This document shows, one piece after another, positions 11,836 to 16,059 of a DNA stretch of 64,000 nucleotides (position 1 is the stretch's first letter; each line of letters starts with the position of its first letter). The DNA is from Desulfosoma sp. (GTDB lineage: Bacteria > Desulfobacterota > Syntrophobacteria > Syntrophobacterales > DSM-9756). The position numbers and the translations under genes were made by a program. Under the pieces are notes generated by a model that was given only the letters and a program-made list of their open reading frames with translations, ran no database searches and had not been told where the DNA came from. Location: NCBI GenBank assembly GCA_037481875.1, contig JBBFKY010000006.1:62001-126000 (forward strand), written 5' to 3'.

Positions 11836-12822
11836 TTAGATGCGAAATTCGACCACATCGCCGTCTTGAAGTTCATAGTCCTTTTGAACCATCTGGCCGT
11901 CGAAGACCGCATTCCCCCATATTCTAGCGAATTTGAGCTTCTCCACAAAGTCCTTGTGAATTTTTTCTGCAAGATCCTGAAGTGTGCTCTTTTTAGGAAG
12001 AACAAAAGGAGCGGATTTGTCGGGTTCTTTACCCGGGGCTTTGGTGTAGACGCGAATGACATCGGAAAGCGCAAAAACAGTGTCCAGTAACGTGTGCAAG
12101 CCGCGACCGGTCGCTGAAGAAACCGCCACACACGGCAGGCGGCATTGGCTCAGTTCCTGAAAGGCAAGAAAATCCTCCAGATCCGCATCCGTATCCACCT
12201 TATTGACAACCACAATCATTTTTTTCAAGAAAGGTTTCTTTTGCAAATCAGGGGGCAAGGGGTTTCCTTCCGGAAAGACTCTCAAGCCCTGAAGCACCTC
12301 CAGAGTATCCTCCAACTGTTGCAAAGGATCCGCCTTAAGGTCCACCATGATCATGACCAAATCAGCTTTACGAATCAGATCCGCCATCCATGGGTCAATA
12401 AAGTTCTTGCTGATCGGCGGTGTGTCAATAAGCTGGAATTGAATGTTTTCGTAAGGCACCATGCCCGGCGTAGGTTTCCATGTGGTATGAGGAAATTCGG
12501 CCACTTCAGGTGATGCGTTGCTTAAAACCCCTACCAGAGAGGATTTCCCCACGTTGGGTGCGCCAACCACCACGACCTGGGCGGCTCCTTCCTTGTCAAT
12601 GACGTAAGCAACCCCCTTTCGCCCCGCTCCCTTTCTCTGCTGAGCTTCTGATTTGAATTTGGCGATTTTACGGCGCAGGTCGGCGCGCAGCTTGTCCGTG
12701 CCCTTGTGCTTGGGCATGATGGTGAGCATTTCTTCCAGCGCTTCGATTTTAGCTTCAGGCGTCTTGGCTTCGCGGTAACGTTTTTCAGCTTCGAAATAGG
12801 GCGGGGGGAGATTCGCCGGCAT
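11836..12822 (-). CDS. TGS-domain GTPase of the DRG/Obg superfamily
   Basis: The 328-residue protein has an N-terminal basic, helical region (1-75) and a G domain with G1 GAPNVGKSS (87-95), G3 DTPP, G4 NKVD and G5-like SSATG. A C-terminal TGS domain (about 250-328) ends in DGDVVEFRI. This architecture is like archaeal and eukaryotic DRG proteins, which act around ribosomes and translation. The G3 motif reads DTPP rather than the usual DTPG. About 280 bases separate it from the sigma factor gene downstream. The selenoprotein-like gene is divergent upstream. Confidence 0.87.
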   Translation of the reverse strand: MPANLPPPYFEAEKRYREAKTPEAKIEALEEMLTIMPKHKGTDKLRADLRRKIAKFKSEAQQRKGAGRKGVAYVIDKEGAAQVVVVGAPNVGKSSLVGVLSNASPEVAEFPHTTWKPTPGMVPYENIQFQLIDTPPISKNFIDPWMADLIRKADLVMIMVDLKADPLQQLEDTLEVLQGLRVFPEGNPLPPDLQKKPFLKKMIVVVNKVDTDADLEDFLAFQELSQCRLPCVAVSSATGRGLHTLLDTVFALSDVIRVYTKAPGKEPDKSAPFVLPKKSTLQDLAEKIHKDFVEKLKFARIWGNAVFDGQMVQKDYELQDGDVVEFRI

Positions 12823-12849
12823 GCTTCACACCTCCTCGCCAAATCACCA

Positions 12850-12876
12850 TTGTTTCAGCAATTCTGGACTTATAAA
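12850..12876 (+). promoter_or_regulatory. Candidate sigma-70 promoter for the small selenoprotein gene
   Basis: TTGTTT at 12850-12855 and TATAAA at 12871-12876 are separated by 15 bases, a short spacer, about 85 bases upstream of the small gene. It is the best match in the interval but is not a strong one. Confidence 0.35.
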
Positions 12877-12959
12877 ATGGCATTGCCCACCTCTTCTTGT
12901 CAATGGGCTCGCAAAAGGGTATGAACGATTCCTCGTCTATCAACAAGGAAGGACACGCC

Positions 12960-13130
12960 ATGATCTCATGCCCTCAGTGCGGCCAACCTCTTCAGTGGAT
13001 TCGACAATGAAGGCGTCAGCTTTGGCGTTGCACGGTGTGCCGCCGGGACTACACCTTGGAGTCTCTTGCCGCTTTGATGGATGACGAACTTGAGGAGCTT
13101 TTGGGAGCCGTTCGAGTGGACAGATTGTGA
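12960..13130 (+). CDS. Small dual-CXXC protein with in-frame TGA, candidate selenoprotein
   Basis: Read through one TGA at codon 17 (13008-13010), this frame gives a 56-residue protein: MISCPQCGQPLQWIRQ, then Sec, then RRQLWRCTVCRRDYTLESLA and an acidic tail ending VRVDRL. Two CxxC pairs (CPQC, CTVC) suggest a zinc ribbon or redox site. I recall a family called dual CXXC motif small (seleno)protein in related bacteria, where a Cys or Sec follows the first pair; this assignment is from memory. A strong ribosome site (AAGGAAGGA) precedes the ATG, a SECIS-like hairpin follows the TGA, and a terminator follows the final TGA. If Sec is not inserted, only a 16-residue peptide is made. The function is unknown. 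Confidence 0.72.
13008..13044 (+). promoter_or_regulatory. UGA codon plus SECIS-like hairpin
   Basis: After the TGA at 13008-13010, bases 13024-13044 fold as GGCG, bulged TT, GCAC, loop GGT, GTGC, CGCC. The loop starts 23 bases after the UGA, inside the range known for bacterial SECIS elements. The bulged U and GGU apical loop match the features SelB recognises in the E. coli fdhF element. It is part of the coding frame. Confidence 0.66.
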
Positions 13131-13167
13131 CCGCACACCCTGAAACAGGGTCTGCGGTCTTGTTTCA
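13131..13167 (+). terminator. Intrinsic terminator after the small selenoprotein gene
   Basis: Immediately after the stop codon, CCGCA-C-ACCCTG pairs with CAGGGT-C-TGCGG around an AAA loop. TCTTGTTTC, a moderate U-tract, follows on the plus strand. It lies between convergent genes (alaS ends at 13205). Confidence 0.68.
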
Positions 13168-13204
13168 AGGAAAGGTCGGAAAATCGGGCTGAGCCTTCGA
13201 TGCT

Positions 13205-15868
13205 TCAGGAGGCCAGCTTGGCCTCGATCAGGTTTTCTGCGAGTTTCAACGCCTCTTCGAGTTTTTGAGGCAGATGTCCTCCTGCCTGAGCCATGTCCGG
13301 GCGCCCTCCGCCGCTTCCCCCCACCACTTGAGCCACTTCTCGAATAAGATGGCCCGCATGAATACGCTCCGTAAGGTCCTTGGTCACGCCGACCAAAAGG
13401 AAGACCTTTTCGTCGTGAACGGCTCCCAGAACCATCACCCCCGAGCTGACGCGTTCCTTGAATCGGTCGTTCATCTCCCGCAAAGCTTTGGGATCCGTCA
13501 CTTCCACACGCCGAACCAGGACTTTCACCCCGGCCGTCTCCTTGGCTTCTTCAAACAGGTCCAAAGATTTCCGGGCCGTCATGGAACTTTTCACAGATTC
13601 CAGGTTCTTTTCCAATTCCCTGATCTGGATAAGGAGCTTTTCAACGCGTTCCGGCACCTCTTGCGGTGAAGCTTTCAAACGGCGGGCCGCCGTTTCCAGC
13701 AACCGGCGCTGTTCCTGCCAAAAGTGCAGAGCGTGACGGCCCGTAAGGGCCTCAATACGGCGAACTCCCGCCGCCACACTGGATTCCTGCACGATAACAA
13801 AGGATCCGATATCGCCGCTGCGTTCCGCATGGGTGCCGCCACAGAGTTCTTTGCTAAAGTCGGCGATTTCCACAAGTCGAACTGTTTCCCCGTATTTTTC
13901 TTCAAAGAGGGCGACGGCTCCAGCTCGTATGGCTTCGTCAAAGGCCATGACATGCACATGAAGCGGTCGATTTTCCAGGATCGCCTCGTTTACGCGCCGC
14001 TCGATTTCCTGCAATTCTTCCGGGGTCACAGCCGCGAAGTGTGTGAAGTCAAATCGAAGTCTTTCGGGAGCCACCAAAGAGCCGGATTGTTTGACGTGAT
14101 CCCCCAAAACGTCACGAAGGACGCGATGCAAGATGTGCGTGGCCGTGTGATTGCGTGCTGTGTCTTTACGTTTTTGTTCATCCACTTTGAGGGTCACACG
14201 ATCCCCGGCGCGCAATTCGCCGTTTTCGACTCTTACCACATGAACCCAAAGATCCCCGGGCAGCCGCACGGTATCCTCCACAACGGCCGTTACTCCAGGA
14301 CCCCAAAGACGACCCTGATCCCCCACCTGGCCGCCGGCTTCACCGTAAAAAGGTGTCTGATCCACTACCACTTCGACCCGGCTCTCCGGCCCTGCCGCCT
14401 CGATCAAGGCGCCTTCCTGAATCAAAGCCACGACCAGGCTTTCCGTCTCCAGCCTTTCGTATCCAACAAATGCCGTGCGCACTCCTTGAGCGGCCAGTCT
14501 GCGGTACGCTTCCGAGATTTCTCTTTCTCCGCTCCCTTTCCAGTGACGGCGGGATTGCTCCCTTTGTCTCTCCATGAGGGTGTCAAAACCCGCCTGATCC
14601 ACTTGCATACCCATCTTTTTGGCCATGTCCGTGACAATGTCGATGGGAAATCCGTAAGTGTCGTAGAGTTTGAACACAAGAGACCCTGGAACAAGGGTAG
14701 CCCCTTCATCCTGAAGGCGGGCCATTTCATTGTGAAGCAGCTTCAATCCATGGTCCAAGGTTTCACTGAATCGTTCTTCTTCATGCAGAATCACTCGAGA
14801 AATATAGCTTCGATTTTCCAGCAGTTCTGGATAGACGTCCGCCATGGCATGCATCACCGCTTCCACGACGCTGTGAAGAAAGGGGCGGTTCAAACCGAGG
14901 AAACGGCCGTGGCGCAAAGCACGACGAATCACTCGCCGAAGGACGTAACCTCGACCTTCATTGCTAGGGAGCACACCATCCCCGATGAGAAAAGCCGCCG
15001 CACGCCCATGGTCGGCAATGACCTTAAAGGAGACGTCTTTTTCCGCATCCTCCCCGTAACGCAGTCCCGCTTGCGCTCCGATAGCCTCCATCATGGGAGC
15101 AAAAAGGTCTGTATCATAATTGGACGGTACTTTTTGGATAACCGCCGTGATACGTTCCAAACCCATTCCCGTGTCAATGCTCGGCTTGGGCAAAGGCTCC
15201 AGGGTTCCGTCTTCCTTGCGGTTAAATTGCATAAAGACCAGGTTCCACAATTCCAAAAAGCGATCGCAGTCGCATCCCGGTCGACAGTCCGGGCGGCCGC
15301 ACCCCATGGCTTCTCCCTGATCGATGAGGATTTCAGAACAGGGCCCGCACGGTCCGGTATCTCCCATGGCCCAAAAATTATCTTTGGTGGAAAAGGCAAG
15401 AATCCTCTCTTCGGGAAGATAGTTCTTCCAGTAGCTTCGAGCCTCTTCATCGCGTCCCAGAGACATGCCGGGATCGCCTTCGTGAATGGTGGCGTAGAGT
15501 TTATCTTGAGGCAAGCCCATGTGATCCGTAAGAAATTCCCAGGCGAATTCAATCGCTTCCTTCTTGAAATAATCGCCGAAAGAAAAGTTGCCGAGCATTT
15601 CAAAGAAGGTGTGATGACGCGCGGTATAGCCTACGTTTTCCAAATCGTTATGCTTGCCTCCAGCCCTCATACATTTTTGGCTGGAAGCGGCTCGACTGTA
15701 ATCCCGCTTTTCCTCCCCAAGAAAACACCGCTTGAACTGGTTCATACCCGCATTGGTAAAGAGCAAAGAGGGATCGTCATGGGGAATGAGGGAAGAACTC
15801 TTGACAATGGTATGGCCTTTATCGCGGAAGTAATCCAAAAATTTCTGACGAATTTCACTGGCCCTCAT
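13205..15868 (-). CDS. alaS: Alanyl-tRNA synthetase
   Basis: The 887-residue class II synthetase charges tRNA-Ala. The catalytic domain opens with RQKFLDYFRDKGHTIVKSSS and contains LLFTNAGMNQFK. The editing domain carries the zinc-binding HTATHILH motif and the ELCGGTH cysteine/histidine pair. A DHHA1-type C-terminal domain rich in glycine (VVGGSGGGRPDMAQAGG) completes the usual architecture, and the length is normal. The start is ATG 15868, preceded by AGGAG. The upstream in-frame extension of 33 codons is not conserved in character. recA lies about 300 bases upstream on the same strand. Confidence 0.97.
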   Translation of the reverse strand: MRASEIRQKFLDYFRDKGHTIVKSSSLIPHDDPSLLFTNAGMNQFKRCFLGEEKRDYSRAASSQKCMRAGGKHNDLENVGYTARHHTFFEMLGNFSFGDYFKKEAIEFAWEFLTDHMGLPQDKLYATIHEGDPGMSLGRDEEARSYWKNYLPEERILAFSTKDNFWAMGDTGPCGPCSEILIDQGEAMGCGRPDCRPGCDCDRFLELWNLVFMQFNRKEDGTLEPLPKPSIDTGMGLERITAVIQKVPSNYDTDLFAPMMEAIGAQAGLRYGEDAEKDVSFKVIADHGRAAAFLIGDGVLPSNEGRGYVLRRVIRRALRHGRFLGLNRPFLHSVVEAVMHAMADVYPELLENRSYISRVILHEEERFSETLDHGLKLLHNEMARLQDEGATLVPGSLVFKLYDTYGFPIDIVTDMAKKMGMQVDQAGFDTLMERQREQSRRHWKGSGEREISEAYRRLAAQGVRTAFVGYERLETESLVVALIQEGALIEAAGPESRVEVVVDQTPFYGEAGGQVGDQGRLWGPGVTAVVEDTVRLPGDLWVHVVRVENGELRAGDRVTLKVDEQKRKDTARNHTATHILHRVLRDVLGDHVKQSGSLVAPERLRFDFTHFAAVTPEELQEIERRVNEAILENRPLHVHVMAFDEAIRAGAVALFEEKYGETVRLVEIADFSKELCGGTHAERSGDIGSFVIVQESSVAAGVRRIEALTGRHALHFWQEQRRLLETAARRLKASPQEVPERVEKLLIQIRELEKNLESVKSSMTARKSLDLFEEAKETAGVKVLVRRVEVTDPKALREMNDRFKERVSSGVMVLGAVHDEKVFLLVGVTKDLTERIHAGHLIREVAQVVGGSGGGRPDMAQAGGHLPQKLEEALKLAENLIEAKLAS

Positions 15869-16059
15869 GAAAGGTCTCCTGTCTTTCAAACTCAGGGCGG
15901 TACCGATCCCCACGGTAACGGACAACGGCTCTTGGGGACTCCAACCCCGTTTATACGGGGACTCCAAAGACGCTCATGTCAGGAAGTTGGCCGAGAACGG
16001 ATTTTTCTCTGGAAGCGCCTTCCGCACGGACGCGTTGCCGGCTAGAAGCCCGGGCTGCC

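Follow-up and report, generated by a model that had tools for sequence, protein, structure and literature searches.

Genes and features at the locus

The window, by which we mean the whole stretch of 64,000 nucleotides analysed here, comes from a Desulfosoma genome (contig JBBFKY010000006.1, positions 62,001 to 126,000), and the feature under study is an open reading frame at positions 12960-13130 of its forward strand, with the translation MISCPQCGQPLQWIRQ-U-RRQLWRCTVCRRDYTLESLAALMDDELEELLGAVRVDRL. The encoded protein has 56 residues, with selenocysteine (Sec) at residue 17, and the order along the frame is C4xxC7, a TGA as codon 17 (13008-13010, forward strand), C24xxC27 and a final TGA at 13128-13130. 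A Shine-Dalgarno sequence, AAGGAAGGA, can be read at 12945-12953 of the same strand, 6 nt before the ATG at 12960. The first-pass annotation had claimed a ribosome site ahead of this ATG and an in-frame TGA between two CxxC pairs, and both were borne out at these coordinates. A SECIS-type hairpin lies within the coding region at 13024-13044 (forward strand).

The same annotation had also placed a terminator right after the second TGA. A strong stem-loop is indeed found at 13129-13159 of the forward strand (-22.7 kcal/mol, z -4.06), beginning inside the final stop codon, but its T tract is poor, with only TTGTTT following the stem, and it was not called in the terminator scan; it is a probable terminator. 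It separates the selenoprotein gene from the convergent alaS and possibly terminates one or both strands. The Rfam scan of positions 12800-13300 gave no match at gathering scores, and a P17 match of 22 bits on the minus strand was discarded as nothing other than a terminator-type hairpin.

The selenoprotein gene has no same-strand neighbours. It sits between a divergent GTPase gene at 11836-12822 (minus strand), which carries the G motifs (GAPNVGKSSL), and the convergent alanyl-tRNA synthetase gene alaS at 13205-15967 (minus strand), the open reading frame of which, as listed, begins at an upstream TTG; both assignments are based on the reading frames and on clustering, which recovered the GTPase neighbour in 21 loci and the alaS neighbour in 24. 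The neighbourhood was considered as a clue to function and set aside as uninformative, since the flanking genes are alaS and the GTPase gene or rpoD, lie on the opposite strand and form no operon with the gene. In the loci of another family (f5; L024, L027, L028 and L030), the gene is found upstream of a peptide deformylase-like gene on the same strand. In three of these four loci a methionyl-tRNA formyltransferase-like gene comes next; the cases are too few to use.

Family membership

When the TGA was read as U/C, the protein scored 60.6 bits against the NCBIfam profile NF041197, "dual CXXC motif small (seleno)protein" (CxxC_Se_CxxC), for which the curated cut-off is 40 bits, and the match is full length, with residues 4-56 aligned to positions 1-53 of the 53 in the profile. 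The window protein is a new member of this already catalogued selenoprotein family, which is listed as hypothetical protein OS_HP3, with the motif RxU, in a 2026 review (PMC13188914), and for which an earlier review (PMC9312934) credits a 2007 study of an Olavius algarvensis symbiont. The RxU motif is present as R15-Q16-U17. The likeness to NF041197/OS_HP3 extends to the small size, the free-standing form and the same position of Sec between the CxxC pairs, and no difference was found, the R-Q-U-R of the window protein being an ordinary RxU.

Among 147 related genomes the family is present in 65, and above the cut-off in 56, while a genome-wide scan showed the window gene to be the only copy in its own genome. 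A single-protein search of genome contigs returned one close match, in a Desulfosoma MAG, together with a second that is distant, and a Pfam search returned zinc-ribbon matches only, all of them below threshold. The family is widespread in sulphate reducers and their kin, and the locus contributes one more member to it. It also provides a sound case of a recoded UGA, in which a standard gene finder would truncate the gene to 16 codons.

The UGA codon in homologous genes

To compare the codons at the Sec position, 71 aligned copies were used, the window copy included. The results showed that this column is occupied by TGA in 66 copies, TGT in three and TGC in two, with TAA, TAG or any other residue in none of the 71, while the natural terminators of the same 71 genes are distributed as 37 TGA, 24 TAG and 10 TAA. 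A true stop codon would be expected to drift among the three stop codons in the same way. Among 50 aligned copies five columns are invariant, namely C4, C7, position 17, C24 and C27, and E45 and D54, both downstream of the TGA, are nearly so. In addition, the differences downstream of the TGA between the window gene and two same-genus copies (8/4/16 and 7/3/16 over the codon positions) fall mostly at third codon positions. Judged from these alignments, the frame on both sides of the TGA is conserved in the 66 Sec-type copies far beyond what chance would give, and the reading of this TGA as a stop is rejected.

The hairpin downstream of the UGA

The hairpin at 13024-13044 reads GGCG-UU-GCAC-GGU-GUGC-CGCC, and its GGU loop follows the UGA at about 24 nt, which is a plausible distance for a SECIS element. 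The hairpin centres on the codons for C24 and C27, and because it includes these codons much of its conservation is conservation of the protein. Its position agrees with that given in the first-pass annotation, but taken alone the window hairpin is no more stable than expected by chance, either against dinucleotide shuffles of positions 13005-13060 (z -0.61) or against synonymous-codon shuffles (z -0.65, p 0.26). Across the family, the 66 Sec copies, which are related to one another, gave a mean z of -1.0 against synonymous shuffles, with 58 values negative, where the codon usage of one genome was applied to all copies. The five Cys-type copies gave a mean z of -1.6, a value driven by one copy; since these are also negative, folding energy fails to separate Sec genes from Cys genes, and the family-wide stability signal is a weak one.

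Moderate support for the hairpin comes at the level of the family. The two inner pairs of the stem are kept, allowing for one-sided G-U changes, in all 64 distinct sequences, and the loop is rich in G and constant in its spacing from the UGA, nucleotide 27 downstream of that codon being G in 57 of the 64. In the Gly codon that follows the second CxxC pair, the wobble base tracks its partner, with 34 G-C against 6 T-A combinations in 47 cases (Fisher p 0.001, a value inflated by the relatedness of the sequences); this is the one compensatory change seen across the family, and it falls at a synonymous position. On these comparisons the hairpin probably functions as a SECIS.

Selenocysteine machinery and alternative readings of the UGA

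The source genome, which is 99.6% complete, encodes SelA (630 bits), two SelB proteins (416 and 308 bits), SelD (385 bits) and a tRNA-Sec with the anticodon TCA (UCA; 74.5 bits). The first-pass annotation had read the UGA as selenocysteine, proposing that selA, selB, selC and selD be sought in the genome and homologues be compared for Cys or UGA, and that absence of the genes, or replacement of the codon by a stop together with an unconserved downstream frame, would count against it; all four genes were found, and with the homologue column described above the selenocysteine reading is supported. The selA gene was found in 138 of the 147 genomes, and its co-occurrence with the family is uninformative for that reason. 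Two genomes (G059 and G095) carry a TGA-containing gene with no selA detected; these are not counter-examples, because both MAGs are incomplete (79% and 67%) and have a tRNA-Sec, G059 having SelB as well. It was also observed that the selD gene of the window's genome (L010:1501-2427; G000:C8:51971-52897) has one in-frame TGA, which suggests that SelD is probably a selenoprotein itself.

A tRNA with the shape of a tRNA-Sec and a GCA (Cys) anticodon was found at L015:1501-1590, about 1.2 kb upstream of the second selB (locus L002, G000:C2:315649-318791), and the two make up a selC*/selB* pair. Such pairs have been described in Syntrophobacterales, with a UCA anticodon in some of the selC* tRNAs (PMC7609411).

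Two alternative readings of the TGA at 13008 were weighed against its decoding as selenocysteine. In one, it is an ordinary stop that closes a peptide of 16 residues, and the frame beyond it is open by chance; the failure of the window hairpin, by itself, to exceed chance would fit such a stop, but a frame whose protein sequence is conserved across a phylum, and in which five copies have Cys in place of the TGA and none has TAA or TAG, leaves this reading with virtually no probability. In the other, the UGA is decoded as cysteine by the SelB*/selC* tRNA-Cys pair of the same genome. The placement of a Cys-anticodon tRNA just upstream of the second selB, and the published pairs from this order, some with UCA anticodons, speak for it; the selC* anticodon here is GCA, however, which reads UGC and UGU, and of the candidate tRNAs examined only one has UCA, which is a typical tRNA-Sec, so that we consider decoding as cysteine very improbable, though less so than a stop. 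For selenocysteine, SelB with Sec-tRNA-Sec(UCA) would decode the UGA at 13008, aided by the hairpin, of which the codons for C24 and C27 form a part.

Predicted fold and the place of Sec17

An AlphaFold2 model built from 50 sequences, with no metal included, shows a zinc ribbon followed by a C-terminal helical part, with strands at residues 10-16, 19-24 and 30-32. Confidence in the model is moderate (mean pLDDT 77, pTM 0.50), with pLDDT of 84-87 over residues 11-30. The two CxxC knuckles are linked in the model by a beta-hairpin, which is the arrangement expected of a zinc ribbon, and the turn joining strands 10-16 and 19-24 carries Sec17, with the knuckles lying at the other end of the hairpin. 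The residues around it are basic throughout much of the family, with R or K at -2 of Sec in 56 of 58 copies and at +1 in 51 of 58. Structure matches were weak (best Foldseek E 0.18, and no Z above 5), and a sequence search of solved structures returned generic zinc ribbons only. Residues 1-35 have a weak structural likeness to the N-terminal ribbons of Rpb9 and Pol III C11 and to ZifS; these differ in having no Sec, and with such E-values and Z-scores no claim of kinship can be made. The model gives the zinc-ribbon assignment a support that is weaker than that for the selenocysteine, and the four cysteines C4, C7, C24 and C27 would be expected to hold one metal ion.

Small dual-CxxC proteins often bind metal, and selenocysteine is known as a metal ligand in other proteins. 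These properties would favour a metal site in which Sec17 itself is a ligand, as part of a Cys/Sec centre, with the protein acting as a metal sensor or carrier. We regard that as improbable, however, given that Sec17 occupies, in the model, the hairpin turn remote from the metal site, at least seven residues from either CxxC pair, and that the four cysteines already complete a tetrahedral site. It is more likely, as far as the model can be trusted, that Sec17 is an exposed nucleophile or redox group. The first-pass annotation had suggested redox or metal chemistry for Sec17, and of the two the model favours redox or nucleophile chemistry.

The locus almost certainly holds a stand-alone NF041197 selenoprotein of 56 residues, with family membership, Sec or Cys conservation, the machinery and the conserved frame all directly observed, in which the hairpin would help the decoding of the UGA and the product would be a zinc ribbon with Sec17 at its tip. 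Placed between basic residues at the tip of the beta-hairpin, Sec17 could be presented to a partner by the metal-stabilised ribbon, and the basic residues would favour the selenolate form or bind an anionic substrate. Ribbons of the TFIIS type present catalytic residues. By analogy, Sec at the tip of the ribbon hairpin might enter the active site or channel of a partner protein and serve there as a reactive group, a proposal that we think has a small chance of being correct and that, if true, would give selenocysteine an unusual role.

A related GxU form

A GxU form that shares this layout was found in several relatives (L078-L090), mostly with TGA and in one locus (L079) with Cys, and at times it occurs beside the RxU form in one genome (for example in G006, G071 and G083). 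This form corresponds to "hypothetical protein DW" (PMC12013277), which the 2026 review also files under NF041197 (PMC13188914). DW resembles the window protein in its dual CxxC layout and in the position of Sec; it differs in having CGG after the first pair and GxU, where the window protein has RxU, and in having no DR(L/I/V) C-terminus. The DW members fall below the NF041197 cut-off in the genome search, and two of them scored just above it, at 41.8 and 42.0 bits, in a scan that began at position 1 and had U replaced by C.
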